A model generated the notes under the pieces. That model did no database searches. It worked only from the letters and a program-made list of their open reading frames with translations, and was not told the origin of the DNA. Positions 5,211-37,171 of a stretch of 44,544 nt of DNA are shown here, one piece after another. Each line of letters opens with the position of its first letter. Within the stretch, counting starts at the first letter, position 1. Location: the IMG/VR virus record IMGVR_UViG_3300020185_000088, positions 1 through 44,544 of that record. One strand, 5' to 3'. Made by a program: the position numbers and the translations under genes. The DNA is from a virus.

Positions 5211-6119
5211 TTAACCCTTATTGAATTGAGCAGTTGGAACTGACTGGTGAATTTTCTCTAAAGTTCCACTGTCATTGACATAAATCTCGTCAACCTTCTC
5301 TACACTTCCAGCATTATTTCTGTATACACCTTTAACCTTTGCAATTGGGCCAACCGTTCTAGTTGTTGTATATGGTTGTTGGAATGTATAATTTTGTTGG
5401 AAACTATAAGGTGATTGATATGCATGTTGATATGTTGAAGGTTGTCTAGCATTTGCAATATAAGGATTTCTATAGATTACGGGGTGTTGGTAAATACTAG
5501 GTTGTTGATTCACATATGTACTTGGAGTTCTTGCAGGTGTTTCAAAACTGTATGATGCCTGACGGTTATATGTAAATGGTGTTCTACCCTGTCTTGCATA
5601 CGTACTTGGAGTTTGAGATATGTATGGGTATGGTTGTTGTGCGTTTGCCTCATATGGATACGGTTGTTGTGCATTTGCTATGTACGGATAAGGTTGTTGT
5701 GCAATATATGGATATGGTGTTTGATTATCAGCAATATACGGATAAGGTTGTTGTGCTTGAGCAACTGGTGTAGTTGCAGGTCTTCTTGCAGTGTATGGGT
5801 ATGTTATCTGACCACTATTAATAAATGGATATGGATTCTGTTTATTTGCACTATATGGATAAGTTCTTACTGCAGCTGCAATAGGTCTTGTTCCACTTGT
5901 TTGTTTATTTGCTTGATATGACACTTGAACAATATGTGGATATTGTGCAGTGTTTTGTCTGTTTGCAGTAAAAGAATATGGTTGTTGACTAATATTCTGA
6001 ACATTTAATGGTTGCCTTGTAGGTTGTTGAAAACTATAAGGTTGTTGAGATGTGACCTGCAATGTATATGGAGTCTGATATTGAAAACTATAAGGTTGTT
6101 GTGTTTGTCCTATTGCCAT
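5211..6119 (-). CDS. Q/P/Y-repeat virion protein (unrecognised family)
   Basis: I do not recognise a family for the first 250 of 302 residues. They are an imperfect 7-10-residue repeat of the type Q-x-P-Y-P-Y-x-A-N-A, for example QQPYPYIANAQQPYPYEANA. Variants include TPSTYARQG and QSPYSFQQN. The region is rich in Gln, Pro, Tyr, Asn, Thr and Ala and has no Cys. The last 47 residues form a separate segment (KVKGVYRNNAGSVEKVDEIY) like short beta modules in other phage virion proteins. GGAGGA precedes the ATG. It is adjacent to and clearly paralogous with 6133-7386. An extended fibre or a prion-like flexible coat are possible roles. Both are inference. Confidence 0.7.
   Translation of the reverse strand: MAIGQTQQPYSFQYQTPYTLQVTSQQPYSFQQPTRQPLNVQNISQQPYSFTANRQNTAQYPHIVQVSYQANKQTSGTRPIAAAVRTYPYSANKQNPYPFINSGQITYPYTARRPATTPVAQAQQPYPYIADNQTPYPYIAQQPYPYIANAQQPYPYEANAQQPYPYISQTPSTYARQGRTPFTYNRQASYSFETPARTPSTYVNQQPSIYQHPVIYRNPYIANARQPSTYQHAYQSPYSFQQNYTFQQPYTTTRTVGPIAKVKGVYRNNAGSVEKVDEIYVNDSGTLEKIHQSVPTAQFNKG
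5360..6110 (-). repeat. Degenerate Q-x-P-Y-x-Y coding repeat
   Basis: Imperfect tandem units of about 24-30 bases, seen on the plus strand as TATGGATA(T/C)GGTTGTTGTGC and its variants. The best-conserved units are at about 5620-5760, where four to five consecutive QxPYPYI units occur. Drift at the edges suggests expansion by duplication followed by divergence. Confidence 0.75.
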
Positions 6120-6132
6120 TTCTTATCCTCCA

Positions 6133-7386
6133 TTAAAATAACGCTAATGTGACGCTTTGACCGTTAAAAATTATATGAGTTGGGAATTGTGATGCTGTAA
6201 TAGGCATACTTCCACTCCACAATGAAGCTGGTGGTGTCATAGGCGAGCCATTTGGAGTAAAGGTTGCATAAGGTATATTTGTAGTAGTACCACTTTTAAT
6301 AATTTGAAGATATTGAAATGTAGAACCATATGTTATCGAAGGTGAAAAGATTCCAACATTCAGTGTTCCCGATAAAGTAGAATTACTTGGTCTATTCAAC
6401 CAATATTGTCGCTGCATAAATTGATAGCTTGGAGTACTTGAAGGAATCGCAGGCCAAGGACTTGAACCAAATGAAGCTCCATATTGCGTTGGTGCAACTG
6501 GATTTTGACTTCTAAATCCTTCATAATAGTAAGTATAACTAGACAATAGTCCACCTTGCACTGGATAAGGGCCCCAAATTGCAGGGTCGGGATAAGTGTA
6601 TGTTGTAGGTTGTCTTCCAATTGTAGTTGCAGGAGTTCGAGCTGTATAAGGGTGTTGATACGTTATTTGTGCTTGTACTGTAGTTTGAAATACACTCTGA
6701 GAATTCGTAGGGTGTCTGTAAGTTATCTGCGCCTGATGTTGATATGTAGTCGGGTGTTGATATGTTGCTTGACTATTGGTACTTACTTGGGCAGTGTATA
6801 TAGTTGGGGTCTGATAATTCTGTTGATAACTATATGGTTGTGTTCCCTGCGCTTGATATATAGAAGGTTGTTGACCAGTATCATTAAATGTATAAGGTTG
6901 TTGTCCTTGTGTTTCATATGGTTGTTGGAAACTCTGTTGAAAACTATATGGTGAACGTCCTTGGTGTTCATACGTAGAAGGTAGTCTTCCAGTTGCACTA
7001 TATGGTGTTTGTCCTTGTCTTGCATATGTAAATGGTGTTCGACCTGTTGCCTGATATATTATAGGCGCTCTTCCTGTATTTTGAGTAGTAGTTTGTGCAT
7101 TTGCAATGTAAGGATATGTCTGTTGTGCAGATGCAATATATGGATAATTTGCAGTTGCCTGAACTATGGAAGGGGTCTGTCTATTTGCAATATAAGGTGT
7201 TTGTGCAGATGCAGGTTGTCTTGCATTTGCAGGTTGTCTATTTTGATATGTAAAAGGTGTTTGTGCATTTGCAGGTTTTCTTGCAATATATTGTGCTATA
7301 ACAGGTGTACGACCTTGTGCAAGTCCTTGTCCTTGGTAGGGTTGTTGGAACGAAGTTCCTATATTTACATAAATTTCATCAGACAT
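6133..7386 (-). CDS. Q/P/Y-repeat virion protein with globular C-terminus
   Basis: The 417-residue protein opens MSDEIYVNIGTSFQQPYQGQ. Its DEIYVN echoes the C-terminal segment of the gene downstream. Residues about 10-270 are the same Q/P/Y-rich degenerate repeat (AQTPYIANRQTPS, GRTPFTYARQGQTPYS, TYQHPTTYQHQ). From about residue 275 the sequence changes to an aromatic-rich, apparently folded domain of about 140 residues (PDPAIWGPYPVQGG to FNGQSVTLALF). There is no Shine-Dalgarno. The ATG follows the upstream stop by two bases, so translation probably depends on re-initiation. A fibre shaft with a terminal head domain is plausible but unproven. Confidence 0.7.
   Translation of the reverse strand: MSDEIYVNIGTSFQQPYQGQGLAQGRTPVIAQYIARKPANAQTPFTYQNRQPANARQPASAQTPYIANRQTPSIVQATANYPYIASAQQTYPYIANAQTTTQNTGRAPIIYQATGRTPFTYARQGQTPYSATGRLPSTYEHQGRSPYSFQQSFQQPYETQGQQPYTFNDTGQQPSIYQAQGTQPYSYQQNYQTPTIYTAQVSTNSQATYQHPTTYQHQAQITYRHPTNSQSVFQTTVQAQITYQHPYTARTPATTIGRQPTTYTYPDPAIWGPYPVQGGLLSSYTYYYEGFRSQNPVAPTQYGASFGSSPWPAIPSSTPSYQFMQRQYWLNRPSNSTLSGTLNVGIFSPSITYGSTFQYLQIIKSGTTTNIPYATFTPNGSPMTPPASLWSGSMPITASQFPTHIIFNGQSVTLALF
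6580..7359 (-). repeat. Degenerate Q/P/Y coding repeat, second copy
   Basis: About 260 residues of imperfect units similar to the 5360-6110 array but more diverged, with His (QHPTTYQHQ) and Arg (RTPFTY) variants more common. The two arrays are in adjacent genes, read in the same direction, and are probably the products of gene duplication. Confidence 0.7.
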
Positions 7387-29460: not shown

Positions 29461-29889
29461 TCGTACAGCGGAAGGTTTAAACCAAAGAACTATAAAAAAT
29501 ACAAAGGAGACCCTACAAAGATAATATACAGGTCTCTATGGGAAAGAAGATTCATGGTCTATTGTGATACTAATACTAATATCATAGAGTGGGGTAGTGA
29601 GGAAGTTATCATTCCATACAAGTCTCCTTTAGACAAAAGAGTACATAGATACTTTCCTGACTTCTACATAAAGTTTGTTAATGATAAGGGTCAATCTATA
29701 AGAGAGATTATAGAAGTTAAACCTAAGAAACAACTTAAACCCCCAAAGGAACCTAAACGACAAACCAAACGATACCTCAATGAGATTGCAACCTATGCTG
29801 TCAATCAAGCAAAGTTTAAAGCTGCAGAAGAGTATTGTAAAGATAGACGATTGAATTTTAGAATATTAACTGAAGACCACTTAACATGA
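29458..29889 (+). CDS. 4: Head completion protein gp4
   Basis: I start at ATG 29458-29460 (MSYSGRFKPKNYKKYKGDPT, 143 residues) because it aligns with the N-terminus of T4 gp4 (150 residues). In-frame ATGs upstream would run through the promoter. Matching parts are IIYRSLWERRFMVYCD, then RYFPDFYIKF, then EIIEVKPKKQLKPP, and finally a C-terminal LNFRILTEDHL. The D-x(n)-E-V-K arrangement recalls a PD-(D/E)XK nuclease fold. In T4 the protein (gp4, also called gp50) finishes DNA-filled heads before tails join. There is no Shine-Dalgarno. Confidence 0.9.
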   Translation: MSYSGRFKPKNYKKYKGDPTKIIYRSLWERRFMVYCDTNTNIIEWGSEEVIIPYKSPLDKRVHRYFPDFYIKFVNDKGQSIREIIEVKPKKQLKPPKEPKRQTKRYLNEIATYAVNQAKFKAAEEYCKDRRLNFRILTEDHLT

Positions 29890-30464
29890 AGACATTATAC
29901 ATATTTGATTTAGACGGAGTCTTAATCGACTCAAAAGAAAATATGGAGAGGTCATTCAACTCTCTTAACACTGGTAGAGATTTTAAAGATTACTTCAAGT
30001 TAATAGGTAAACCATTCAAAGATATACTAACTGAAATGGGTATACTTACTGACCAAGATGAGTTAATGATAAAATATAACGAGTTCTCATCAAAGAATAG
30101 TAAGTTGATTAAGTTTTATGACGGTGTAGAAGAACATTTACAACACCTTAAGTCACAAGGAAAGAAACTTGCAGTCGTCACATCTAAACACAAAGATAGA
30201 ACACATGACATTCTGTCTAAACTAGATGTTGAGTTTGACTTCGTATGTTGTCCTACTGAAGGACTAAGAGGTAAACCCTCACCCGACCAATTATTATTTA
30301 CTCTTGCACATTGTAATACTAATCCTAAAGATGCAGTCTATGTTGGAGACATGATAGTAGACAAAGAATGTGCAGATTTATCAGGCGTAGATTTCATACA
30401 TGCAGAATATGGATACGGTGAGGTAGAATGCTGGAACAAAGCAAAATCAATACAGTCGGTTTAA
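29886..30464 (+). CDS. HAD-superfamily phosphatase
   Basis: The 192-residue protein has all four HAD motifs: FDLDG with nucleophile Asp8 and Asp10; VVTS with Ser100; Lys130 followed by Pro131; and VGDMIVD with Asp155 and Asp159. A helical insert of about 75 residues between motifs I and II is a C1-type cap, as in phosphoglycolate phosphatase-like enzymes. KdsC, the Kdo-8-phosphate phosphatase, has no cap, so simple KdsC identity is not supported. It overlaps gp4 by ATGA and the next gene by 37 bases. Dephosphorylation of a sugar or nucleotide-sugar precursor for KdsB is the natural guess. The substrate is unknown. Confidence 0.82.
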   Translation: MKTLYIFDLDGVLIDSKENMERSFNSLNTGRDFKDYFKLIGKPFKDILTEMGILTDQDELMIKYNEFSSKNSKLIKFYDGVEEHLQHLKSQGKKLAVVTSKHKDRTHDILSKLDVEFDFVCCPTEGLRGKPSPDQLLFTLAHCNTNPKDAVYVGDMIVDKECADLSGVDFIHAEYGYGEVECWNKAKSIQSV

Positions 30465-31138
30465 TACCAGCCCGTTGGGGTTCAATTAGATTCGAGGGTA
30501 AACCCCTTGCAATGATTAATGGACAAACAATGATACAAAGGGTTTATGACCGTGCAACACTGTCAAAGAGACTGGACAAAATCTATGTGGTCACTGATAA
30601 TAATAGAATTGAAACCTATTGTAATGACAATGACCTGAATGTAATCAGGATTGATAATGTTGTTCCTACTGGTACTGACCGAATTGCACTTACACTTGAT
30701 ACACTACATGCAGACATATATGTTAACATTCAAGGTGACGAACCCCTGATTGACCCTGACGCAATTGATAAAGTAATAGAGTCTTACACACTAGGTAGTG
30801 TATCAAATGCATATGTTAAAATAGAACAAGATTATAAAAACAGTGATATCAATGTTGTTAAAGTTGCATTCAATAAAGATAACTATGCAACTCATTTTTC
30901 TAGACTACCTATTTCACCTTATCAACAAATGGGATTGTATGCATTCAGTAGAGACATGTTATCAATGTTCTCAACACTTACTAGAGGTGAGTTTGAAAAA
31001 AGAGAGAATGTAGAAATGTTTAGATACATAGAGAATGGATATAAAGTTAAAATGGTAGAGGTTAATGATATCGGATTATCTGTAGACACACCTAACGATA
31101 TAAAACTAGTAGAGGGATATTTAAATGGAAGAGATTAA
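30428..31138 (+). CDS. kdsB: CMP-Kdo synthetase family (3-deoxy-manno-octulosonate cytidylyltransferase)
   Basis: KdsB couples CTP to Kdo, giving the CMP-Kdo used to build the lipopolysaccharide inner core. Motifs of the 236-residue protein in order are IPARWGSIRFEGKPL (13-27), TGTDR (81-85), NIQGDEPLI (100-108), FSRLPI (157-162), MGLYAFSRDML and VDTPNDI (219-225), all in KdsB order. Cellular enzymes are about 245-255 residues. The first ATG, with GAGGTAG before it, is required because IPAR lies at residue 13, so a 37-base overlap with the phosphatase gene is real. Cytidylyltransferases for related 3-deoxy sugars are the main alternative. It is an acquired metabolic gene among tail genes. Confidence 0.85.
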   Translation: MLEQSKINTVGLIPARWGSIRFEGKPLAMINGQTMIQRVYDRATLSKRLDKIYVVTDNNRIETYCNDNDLNVIRIDNVVPTGTDRIALTLDTLHADIYVNIQGDEPLIDPDAIDKVIESYTLGSVSNAYVKIEQDYKNSDINVVKVAFNKDNYATHFSRLPISPYQQMGLYAFSRDMLSMFSTLTRGEFEKRENVEMFRYIENGYKVKMVEVNDIGLSVDTPNDIKLVEGYLNGRD

Positions 31139-33441: not shown

Positions 33442-34143
33442 ATGGGATTACCAATCCAAGCTGCACCAACATATGTGTGCAATTTAAGTGATGGAAGAGA
33501 AGTTAAGTATAGACCTTTCTTAGTTAAAGAACAGAAGTATCTTTTGATTGCAAAAGAGAGTGAAGACGGTAAAGAAATTGCAGAAGCACTCACTCAATTG
33601 ATTGAAAGTGTGACTTTTGGTAAGATTGATGCAAATAAACTTTCTTTATTTGATTTAGAGTACTTGTTTTTACAAATTAGAACTAAATCTGTAGGTGAAA
33701 CTACTAAAGTTAAGTTTTTATGTGGAGAAGAAGACTGTACAGGTAGTGGAAGTGCAGAAATTAACTTAAATGAAGTTAAACTTACTGAAAATCCACTAGA
33801 TTCTAAACTTATGTTAACAGATAACTTAGGTTTAGTGTTAAAATACCCTACAGTTGGAGAATTATCCATAGTAGAAGGCATAGAAGACACTGATGACCGT
33901 CTAATTGCAACAGTTATGTATGGTATAGAAACTATATTTGACGAAAATGAAGTTTATGAGTGTAAAGATGTACAAAGTTCTGACTTAAAAGAGTTTGTAG
34001 AGTCCCTTACACTAGAACAGTTAGAAAAAGTAAATGAGTATTTCATACAAACACCTTCATTGAAGGAAAATATTGAGTATACTTGTGAGTTATGTGGTAC
34101 TAAACAAGAAAAAGTACTACAAGGACTTAACTCTTTTTTTTAA
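33442..34143 (+). CDS. 26: Baseplate hub assembly protein gp26 (T4_baseplate family), zero-frame product
   Basis: The 233-residue product has the signature VKYRPFLVKEQKYLLIAKES at residues 21-40, then LSLFDLEYLFLQIRTKSVGE, both typical of the T4 gp26 family (203-243 residues). Four cysteines (94, 99, 215, 218) could bind zinc. GGAGT is well placed before the ATG. The frame ends TTT TTT TAA inside a run of eight T. A -1 slip there would fuse it to the open frame that follows (34140-34328). In T4, gp26 takes part in hub assembly together with gp51 and gp28. Confidence 0.85.
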   Translation: MGLPIQAAPTYVCNLSDGREVKYRPFLVKEQKYLLIAKESEDGKEIAEALTQLIESVTFGKIDANKLSLFDLEYLFLQIRTKSVGETTKVKFLCGEEDCTGSGSAEINLNEVKLTENPLDSKLMLTDNLGLVLKYPTVGELSIVEGIEDTDDRLIATVMYGIETIFDENEVYECKDVQSSDLKEFVESLTLEQLEKVNEYFIQTPSLKENIEYTCELCGTKQEKVLQGLNSFF

Positions 34144-34328
34144 TATCTCTTTCTCATGAGAGTTTAGTTGGTTATTATCAATCTAACTTTCAGTTAATGC
34201 AGGAACACAAGTACTCATTAACAGAATTAGAAGAAATGATACCATGGGAAAGGGAGATATATGTAAAACTTCTTGTCAATCATTTAGAAGAAGAACGAGA
34301 GAGGATTAGACAAGAACAACAAAGTTAA
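34134..34328 (+). CDS. Probable -1 frameshift extension of gp26
   Basis: The -1 frame is closed by TAA at 34128-34130 and then open to TAA at 34326-34328, giving 62 codons from Leu at 34140-34142. The product contains SHESLVGYYQSNFQLMQEHK and LTELEEMIPWEREIYVKLLV, a helical acidic sequence like the frameshift-encoded parts of tail assembly chaperones. The slippery heptamer T TTT TTT (34134-34140) is in the correct phase, with the zero-frame stop directly after it. Independent starts (ATG at 34197 or 34236) lack a good Shine-Dalgarno. The predicted fusion is about 295 residues. Confidence 0.72.
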   Translation, partial: FFLISLSHESLVGYYQSNFQLMQEHKYSLTELEEMIPWEREIYVKLLVNHLEEERERIRQEQQS

Positions 34329-34372: not shown

Positions 34373-34759
34373 ATGAGTGATGAAAAGAAAGTAAGTACTG
34401 GTAATGTTGAGATAGACGTTGCAAAGTATACAGAAATGGTCTTGAAGTTAGACGAAGCACAAGACAAAATTAAAGAGATGGAAAAAATTTCTAAGGAACT
34501 TCAGATTGCAACAGCAGCTGCAAAACCTAAAGAACGATTCTCTATCGGTGCATTGTTCAGAGATGAAAATGACATTAATGAAAAGGCAATCATAGGATTT
34601 GCATCATTCTTTTTAATGGTCGTATTCGGTTGTGCAGATTTAATTACTGCATTTTGGGATATGGACTTAAAGGTATCTGACACTATCTACACTTCTTTTG
34701 TTGTAGTGACATTAGGTGCATTTGGTATATCAGAAGCAGGAAAGGCATTCGGTAAATAG
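34373..34759 (+). CDS. Two-helix membrane protein in the tail cluster
   Basis: The 128-residue protein has a charged helical N-terminal half, likely a coiled coil (VLKLDEAQDKIKEMEKISKE). Two hydrophobic segments follow at residues 72-95 (IIGFASFFLMVVFGCADLIT) and 103-122 (DTIYTSFVVVTLGAFGISEA). AGAGGAC precedes the ATG. Size and topology are compatible with a holin, but the location between gp26 and the tape measure instead suggests a tail protein, perhaps one inserted into the host membrane during DNA entry. I cannot separate these from sequence. Confidence 0.7.
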   Translation: MSDEKKVSTGNVEIDVAKYTEMVLKLDEAQDKIKEMEKISKELQIATAAAKPKERFSIGALFRDENDINEKAIIGFASFFLMVVFGCADLITAFWDMDLKVSDTIYTSFVVVTLGAFGISEAGKAFGK

Positions 34760-34768
34760 GAAAAATAA

Positions 34769-37171
34769 ATGGCAGACGATAGCATAAACATACTAAGACA
34801 ACAAAATGCACAAGACCTTGCTAAGACTACAGAACAGTTTAGTAAGAAATTTAAAAATGTCGTCTCAAATTTACAAGAGGTTAACACTCCACTTGCAAAA
34901 ACTATTGCAGACTTAAGAGAAACTACTAAAGGTTCTTTTAAGGCGGCCTCAAATGCTAAAGAACTACAGAACTATACTCAACAAATAGTTAAAGCAACTT
35001 CTGATAATGTAGATAAGACTACAAAAGAATATAAAAAACTCTCAGAAGGTTTAGATAGACTTAGTGGAAGTACTGGATTTGTAGACAAACTTAAACTTGC
35101 ACAAGATACATATAGTCTAAATCAATTAAAAGCAATAACACTAGAACAGGAAATTGCAGAAGCAGAAATTAAAAACCGTAAAAAGATTCAAGACTACAGA
35201 GATAAAATACAACAACTTGAATATGATAGTATCCGTGCAGAAGGTTTTGGTGATGAGAAGAAACATAAAGAACTTTTGGAAGAAAAGAAAAAGCAATCTG
35301 CAAGTCTTCTAAAGTTTGAAACTGAAATTTATGATACTAAGAGAGAAGAATTAGAAGTACAGAAAAACTTAATGGATAAGTCTAAATCTAATTTAGACAA
35401 ACTTAATGAGACCGTTGAAAAACAATCAAAAGAAATTGCAGAACAAGATACTAAGTTTACTATGTTCGGTCAAGGACTTAAAGAACTTACAGGTTTTGAT
35501 TTATTAGGAACTTTAGATACAGTTGTTGATAAGGTAGATGCAGTAGGTAAGATATTTGGAAACAAAGACTTGTCTGGCAGTATCGCTAGTGCTTTCTCCT
35601 TTGGTGGTGAGGAAGGTATTGCAGCTTCAATTGCTGGAGATACTCAAGAACAAGACCCTGCAATAAAAATCGCAAGAAAGGAACTAAAAGAAACTGAAGA
35701 AGTTAACGAAGGTGTTCAGACAACTAATAAACTGTTAAGAACATTGGTAGTTGGAGGCGCTCTTAGGAATGCAAAGGGTGGGGACGAAAACACCAAAAAC
35801 AGTCTCACCCTTCTTCCTGGCCTTTCAAAAGCTCTTGTTCCTCTTGCTGGTGCATTAACAGGTGCTTTTGGACTTAACAAAATATCTGATAAATTATTTA
35901 AATTAGCTGATAAAGATGCTGGAAAAACTAAACCAGGCATGCTCAGAAGAGGACTTGGTGGTTTAAAAAATATTGCAGGTGGAAGGGGTAAACTTATTGG
36001 GGGACTTTTAGTTGGTCTTGCAAGTGCCATAGGCCTCGGGAAACTTTTTGGTGATAATGATACACAAGAAGATAATCCCATGTCCCCAGGCTCTATGGGT
36101 GCAGAACTTGGTTCTAATTCAAATAGTGCTATTGGCAGGTCACTGGATAGTTATAAAAATGCCATACCAGGCGGAATAAGACCTGATGAACTTGCAACAG
36201 AATCTTATGAATCTTATAGTTCAAGGTGGCATTATTTAAATGACATACAAGATTTTGATGACCAAGACCCTAGAAAGGTTGATAAACTATTTAATAAAGA
36301 TGGCAAGTTAGATAAAAGAACTAAGTTTTGGAAAAACTGGAAGGCAGAAAATTCTAACATATACGGTAAGGATAAGTTGAATGACCCAGCAGAACTGAAA
36401 AAAATGCTAAACGTATCCCCTTCAGAGTTAGATGACATTCTCGATAAGTCAATAGCGAACAACAAGAAAATGAAACTTGCAGCAAGCTTTGATAGACAAG
36501 TTGTGAAAAATCTAGGTGCAAAATTGCCTTTCGTTGGAAGTGGACTAGATATATTCTTTGATAATAGAGAACAGAACCAATATGGTAAAGGTATAGAGGG
36601 GTTAGAATCAGAAGGCCTTCTAACAGGTGATATGTTAAAGACTGCTGAAGGAGCTCAATCTGCAAATAAAAGAGGTAGTATTGGTCGTGGTATTGGAAGT
36701 TGGGCAGGCGGTCTCTTAGGTGCAGCTCTTCCAGCCGCAGGCGCAATTGCATTAGGTTCAAATCCTGTTGGTTGGGGTATACTTGCTGCTAGTTTAGGTA
36801 CTGGTATATTAGGTGCAATGGGTGGAGGAAGAGCAGGAGACAGTATTGCAACATTCGATAGTGGAGCTCAAACTTTAACACAAGAATTAGCAATGATTGA
36901 TAGTTCAAATGCTTCTAAAGAACAAAAAGAAAGTATGGTTCTAGCTGCACTTAAAAAGTATAAGGGTATTATGAATGACGGAACACCTACAGAAATTGTT
37001 CTTAAGAATGCTTCAAACACTGGATTAGATTCGTCCTCTAAACTAAGTGACGGAAATACTAGTGTGAATACTAATGTTGTGAATAATAAAAATACAACAA
37101 TACAAACTGGTAGACATAGTTTTAGAAATCCCGATGATACTGCGAGACTAGTAGACCTTAAGTACTCTTAA
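34769..37171 (+). CDS. Tail tape measure protein (gp29-like by position)
   Basis: The 800-residue protein opens with about 230 residues of charged coiled-coil helix (EIKNRKKIQDYRDKIQQLEY). Then come hydrophobic Gly/Ala-rich stretches near residues 355-425 (LVPLAGALTGAFGLNKI, LIGGLLVGLASAIGLGKLFG) and 645-695 (GLLGAALPAAGAIALGSNPV). This is the usual tape-measure pattern of a long helical ruler with membrane-active segments. T4 gp29 has 590 residues. At about 0.15 nm per residue this one would suit a tail tube near 120 nm, which is an estimate only. AGGAAA precedes the ATG. The stop codon lies inside a terminator hairpin. Confidence 0.78.
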   Translation: MADDSINILRQQNAQDLAKTTEQFSKKFKNVVSNLQEVNTPLAKTIADLRETTKGSFKAASNAKELQNYTQQIVKATSDNVDKTTKEYKKLSEGLDRLSGSTGFVDKLKLAQDTYSLNQLKAITLEQEIAEAEIKNRKKIQDYRDKIQQLEYDSIRAEGFGDEKKHKELLEEKKKQSASLLKFETEIYDTKREELEVQKNLMDKSKSNLDKLNETVEKQSKEIAEQDTKFTMFGQGLKELTGFDLLGTLDTVVDKVDAVGKIFGNKDLSGSIASAFSFGGEEGIAASIAGDTQEQDPAIKIARKELKETEEVNEGVQTTNKLLRTLVVGGALRNAKGGDENTKNSLTLLPGLSKALVPLAGALTGAFGLNKISDKLFKLADKDAGKTKPGMLRRGLGGLKNIAGGRGKLIGGLLVGLASAIGLGKLFGDNDTQEDNPMSPGSMGAELGSNSNSAIGRSLDSYKNAIPGGIRPDELATESYESYSSRWHYLNDIQDFDDQDPRKVDKLFNKDGKLDKRTKFWKNWKAENSNIYGKDKLNDPAELKKMLNVSPSELDDILDKSIANNKKMKLAASFDRQVVKNLGAKLPFVGSGLDIFFDNREQNQYGKGIEGLESEGLLTGDMLKTAEGAQSANKRGSIGRGIGSWAGGLLGAALPAAGAIALGSNPVGWGILAASLGTGILGAMGGGRAGDSIATFDSGAQTLTQELAMIDSSNASKEQKESMVLAALKKYKGIMNDGTPTEIVLKNASNTGLDSSSKLSDGNTSVNTNVVNNKNTTIQTGRHSFRNPDDTARLVDLKYS

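Follow-up and report, generated by a model that had tools for sequence, protein, structure and literature searches.

Ribosomal −1 frameshifting at the end of gp26 very probably yields the long form of a two-form tail assembly chaperone in the marine T4 relative represented by IMG/VR record IMGVR_UViG_3300020185_000088, whose 44,544 nucleotides are the stretch of DNA analyzed here (the window). We infer the slippage, how efficient it is, and the role as chaperone from the sequence features and comparisons described below. The gp26 gene (33442–34143, + strand) encodes 233 amino acids, and its 3′ end reads ...CTT AAC TCT TTT TTT TAA, with eight consecutive T at 34134–34141. The heptamer T_TTT_TTT (34134–34140, + strand) abuts the stop codon TAA (34141–34143, + strand) and sits in the X_XXY_YYZ phase relative to the gp26 codons. 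The −1 frame is closed just upstream by TAA at 34128–34130, and its stop-to-stop ORF, stop codon included, occupies 34131–34328 on the + strand. After a −1 slip, this frame would read TTA (34140–34142) ATA TCT and onward to AGT (34323–34325) before TAA at 34326–34328. The resulting C-terminal extension of 62 codons (34140–34325, + strand) gives a predicted fusion of 295 residues (233 + 62). The sequence-only reading had described the TTT TTT TAA ending within eight T, the slippage phase of the heptamer, and a 62-residue −1 frame opening immediately before the site, and direct reading of the letters bore out all of these. Among the window ORFs of at least 100 amino acids, the gp26 end is the sole place where an in-phase T6 or A6 heptamer lies directly on a stop codon. 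By sequence, the locus has the arrangement of the lambda G/GT type: a putative slippery site, in phase, lies close to where the short ORF ends, and the shifted frame stays open beyond it.

In profile searches, gp26 matched PF12322 (T4_baseplate) over residues 9–233 (E = 5e-54, 183.7 bits against a cutoff of 24.5) and phrog_150, annotated as baseplate hub (E = 6e-58), which assigns it at the sequence level to the T4 gp26 family. NCBIfam gave no match for gp26 or the extension, and a PDB sequence search with gp26 gave no match. The AF2 model of gp26 had a pLDDT of 85, and the model of its N-terminal domain ranked the HK97 tail assembly chaperone 2OB9 first among 995 aligned chains (VIA). This match covered 83 of 107 residues at 3.8 Å with a Z of 7.2, and the next chain reached a Z of 3.6; the match is supportive of a chaperone fold in the modeled N-terminal domain, but its Z stays below 8. 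A Foldseek search of the PDB with the gp26 model returned no significant match, and 2OB9 was absent from the top 50; the matches in BFVD were baseplate hub chaperones from many myoviruses. Together with the two family matches, the model points to gp26 as the short tail assembly chaperone (TAC-N). A subthreshold Rfam match to SNORD78 elsewhere within gp26 was taken as chance.

The extension, which corresponds to the “gp51” of marine T4-like phages, matched phrog_634, annotated as baseplate hub assembly catalyst (E = 7e-27), and also the last part of phrog_150. Its model was helical, with a pLDDT of 84. PDB sequence matches of the extension to the coiled coil of HIV gp41 were weak and were taken to reflect composition. 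Coding selection was assessed in 27 distinct segments from the clade of the window, each being the opening 63 nt of the extension. No stop codon occurred in the −1 frame of these segments, and 72% of the single-base codon changes were synonymous in that frame (19% expected), compared with 29% and 12% when the other two frames were read. By this substitution pattern, purifying selection acts on the extension ahead of any start codon that could be used.

The sequence-only reading had looked to an alignment of gp26 loci for conservation of the T run and the −1 frame. In that comparison, an in-phase T_TTT_TTN, the −1 frame, and the junction were kept at 179 of 182 related junctions, and the −1 relation was present at every junction with enough sequence. 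Eighty IMG/VR relatives were found with gp26, and 77 of them reach the stop codon. All 77 carry either T_TTT_TTT abutting the stop or T_TTT_TTA with one codon before it; where the sequence is long enough, the −1 frame always holds the extension. A further 82 IMG/VR loci (78 distinct junctions) were found by the extension alone, using cyanophage P-SSM2 and Vibrio phage PVA23 as queries, with the PVA23 extension scan yielding two loci only; the extension is in the −1 frame with T_TTT_TTC in 82/82. The isolates comprised 23 genomes spanning many genera of Kyanoviridae, Straboviridae, and Pootjesviridae, as well as other rhizobial, pseudomonad, Stenotrophomonas, Aeromonas, Vibrio, and Desulfovibrio phages, and T_TTT_TTN was carried by 20 of them. 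The remaining three, Cygsa01, Vibrio phage D532, and Erwinia phage Bue1, have ATT TTC or CTT TTC (that is, N_NTT_TTC) without the T6 heptamer, and the −1 frame of their gp26 homologues is still open; their junction resembles the type of site found in T7 gene 10. The conserved heptamer, the conserved −1 frame, and the coding selection lend strong comparative support to the earlier suggestion that a tail-chaperone fusion is made by programmed −1 frameshifting. The accompanying reservation, that such a frameshift was not standard for the T4 gp26 family, did not stand, as it is standard in the T4 superfamily outside T4’s own subfamily.

T runs are cheap in this DNA because the window is AT-rich (gp26 GC, 0.32), which would suit a chance meeting of a T-rich gene end with an unrelated frame, or an assembly indel that splits one gene. 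The same structure recurs at over 180 separately sequenced loci, including GC-rich ones, and the coding selection in the −1 frame also argues against chance, so that the probability of either origin is negligible in our judgment. Codon usage alone would give ..T TTT with a joint probability of ~10^-24 over 40 representatives and of 10^-10 over the nine representatives with GC >0.42; these values are conditional, because the representatives were picked for carrying the heptamer and are not independent, and the unselected count is the 179/182 given above. Among these same representatives, chosen for the heptamer, its T-rich codons are retained even in genomes that prefer TTC, GC-rich ones included. 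The second frame could also be reached if RNA polymerase, rather than the ribosome, slipped on the T8 run. Transcriptional slippage on homopolymers is a known route to two products (PMC5009743, PMC4256274), and the window does offer eight consecutive T. Half of the representatives (20/40), however, have just six T (T_TTT_TTA, C, or G) with the codon phase of the heptamer still kept, and this disfavors polymerase slippage. The SD-like element upstream of the heptamer likewise suits a ribosomal event, and we consider slippage by the polymerase quite improbable.

The features flanking the heptamer were examined for ribosomal stimulators. An SD-like AAGGA (34121–34125, + strand) lies 8 nt upstream of the heptamer in an anti-SD energy dip and is a likely stimulator of frameshifting; its spacing is like that of the dnaX stimulator. 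Across the 40 representatives, the mean anti-SD pairing energy dropped sharply to its lowest value for 8-mers whose first base lies 17 to 13 nt ahead of the heptamer, and AGG, GGA, or GGG was present at the SD-like position in 39/40. The energy was −6.1 kcal/mol, compared with −4.8 kcal/mol in synonymous recoding (z −5.5). Hairpins 4–10 nt past the heptamer had a mean of −4.5 versus −2.7 in synonymous recodings (z −6.8); both z-scores are upper bounds, because the tested sequences are related. In the window, folding predicted a small, weak 5-bp hairpin (34147–34162, + strand; −3.4 kcal/mol), 6 nt past the heptamer and a possible stimulator, and a larger stem–loop (34157–34192, + strand) that competes with it. 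The folding energy of 34141–34240 had a z of −2.5 against dinucleotide shuffles. The hairpins vary between clades: they are long in P-SSM2, S-H34, S-CAM1, and Bellamy, and some representatives have none. Both kinds of stimulator of −1 frameshifting, an upstream SD-like element and a downstream structure, are thus predicted at the junction.

The −1 frame might instead be a separate small gene 51, translated by coupling or reinitiation. gp51 is annotated separately in many cyanophage GenBank records, and stops and starts lie near each other at the gp26/gp51 junction. Against this, −1-frame homology among relatives begins at the slippery codons, and in 23/40 representatives, the window included, no ATG, GTG, or TTG occurs early enough to start the frame. 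The first ATG of the −1 frame in the window is at 34197, and a start there would leave out 19 of the extension’s 62 residues, those at its N-terminal end; the SD-like element is too distant from any −1-frame start codon to serve initiation. The annotated gp51 starts vary among relatives, and the S-CAM1, DSL-LC03, AS-szw, and S13 records have no gene annotated there. T4 gp51, moreover, is a full-length counterpart of the fusion. We regard a separate gene 51 as very improbable and read the −1 frame as an extension of gp26.

The relationship with T4 was then considered. T4 gp26 matches phrog_150 over 14–235 only, whereas T4 gp51 matches phrog_150 over 13–280 plus phrog_634, and the window fusion spans phrog_150 5–278. 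Pfam also places PF12322 on T4 gp51. The fusion aligned with T4 gp51 by blastp over 272 columns (E = 1e-14), and its C-terminal KYSLTELEEMIPWERE aligns with NYSLNSISKMIPAERG of T4 gp51. The suggestion that the small frame may correspond to gp51 was correct in that the frame matches the C-terminal domain of T4 gp51. T4 gp26 is thus homologous to the short form of the window and T4 gp51, over its full length, to the fusion; because the one spans the short form and the other the fusion, the T4 pair would be a short and a long tail assembly chaperone. Judged by homology, the short and long forms that one locus encodes in the window are split in T4 between two genes, 26 and 51. The two systems differ in that T4 has two separate full-length genes, divergently oriented and needing no shift, whereas the window has one gene with a −1 extension. 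Cyanophage gp51 has been described as ~20% of the normal length, lacking ~200 N-terminal residues (PMC3037559); frameshifting would explain this, with gp26 providing the residues that are absent.

With a little less than even confidence, we propose that across the T4 superfamily the chaperone pair comes from one conserved signal (SD-like AGGG, T_TTT_TTN, and a hairpin), that the frameshift is ancestral, that T4 genes 26 and 51 are a derived duplication fixing the short and long forms, and that hundreds of small “gp51” are not genes. This proposal covers Kyanoviridae, Schizotequatrovirus, other non-T4 Straboviridae, Pootjesviridae, and rhizobial, Stenotrophomonas, and SAR11/Methylophilales phages.

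Under −1 ribosomal frameshifting, most ribosomes would stop at TAA 34141–34143 and release the 233-residue short form. A minority would slip at U_UUU_UUU, probably aided by the upstream AAGGA and the downstream hairpin. In tandem slippage, the P- and A-site tRNA-Phe would each shift by −1 and pair again in full, so that translation resumes at UUA AUA UCU and yields the 295-residue long form. If the lambda gpG/gpGT pair is a guide, the two forms may coat the tape measure protein via their common N-terminal part, and the helical extension may recruit or start tail-tube assembly. Counting against this reading, U_UUU_UUU proved less shift-prone than A_AAA_AAG in Escherichia coli (PMC5009743).

Pairs of the lambda gpG/gpGT and HK97 gp13 type are likewise co-N-terminal short and long forms, made when the ribosome slips by −1 shortly before the short gene ends, as proposed here. 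They precede the tape-measure gene; the pair in the window precedes a gene that is tape-measure-like by length and synteny. With HK97, the likeness may extend to the fold, given the resemblance of 2OB9 to the gp26 N-terminal model. No sequence homology to the lambda gpG/gpGT or HK97 gp13-type chaperones was found; gp26 is about twice the length of their short chaperone and has a second domain, and the lambda shift site, GGGAAAG, is unlike T_TTT_TTT. P-SSM2, Bellamy, Mosig, phiM12, PVA23, and S13 share the gene, the −1 junction, and T_TTT_TTN with the window, and their chaperone loci also have a long tape-measure-like gene downstream. Kyanoviridae and other T4-superfamily loci mostly have T_TTT_TTC, and their stop comes 3 nt later, whereas in the clade of the window the heptamer abuts the stop. 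Phage Adele (Vandenendeviridae/Andersonviridae) has a −1 extension of the tail chaperone with an invariant GTTTTT site (PMC12846349); tail chaperones of this type belong to phage families other than that of the window.

T4-like gp26/gp51 have already been called tail assembly chaperones with poly-T shift sites by Vladimirov et al. (2022), going by the passages that cite this work (PMC10885494, PMC12846349). On the strength of those passages, this kind of system is therefore already known, and the window is a further well-supported case of a known tail-chaperone frameshift. Relative to the same passages, what may be new is how widely the frameshift occurs, the SD-like and hairpin features that the loci share, and the argument that it is ancestral. 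The slippage join was absent at the gp26/gp51 locus from all 22 annotated isolate records examined, which flags a systematic misannotation. The frameshift would explain the apparent tiny “gene 51” of marine T4-like phages and offers a testable account of gp51, the long-obscure “catalyst” of the T4 hub.

The second gene past the chaperone (34769–37171, + strand) encodes an 800-residue tape-measure-like protein with hydrophobic segments around residues 409 and 646, and the syntenic downstream gene of phiM12 is annotated as tape-measure-like. Profile searches gave no strong family match for this product, and its putative identity comes from synteny and length, with hydrophobicity in keeping. Between it and the chaperone, 34373–34759 encodes a 128-residue protein with hydrophobic stretches. 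A small membrane-like protein fills the same slot in Mosig, P10VF, Melnitz, phiM12, and IC12; EF-hand-like DxNxDGxI loops occur in three of these slot proteins. Elsewhere among the structural genes, a HAD-like phosphatase and a CMP-KDO-synthetase-like nucleotidyltransferase were read from the letters at 29886–31138. Amid tail-fibre-like genes, two adjoining proteins on the − strand (5211–7386) consist largely of low-complexity repeats of the QQPYSFQ and ARQPSTYQ types.
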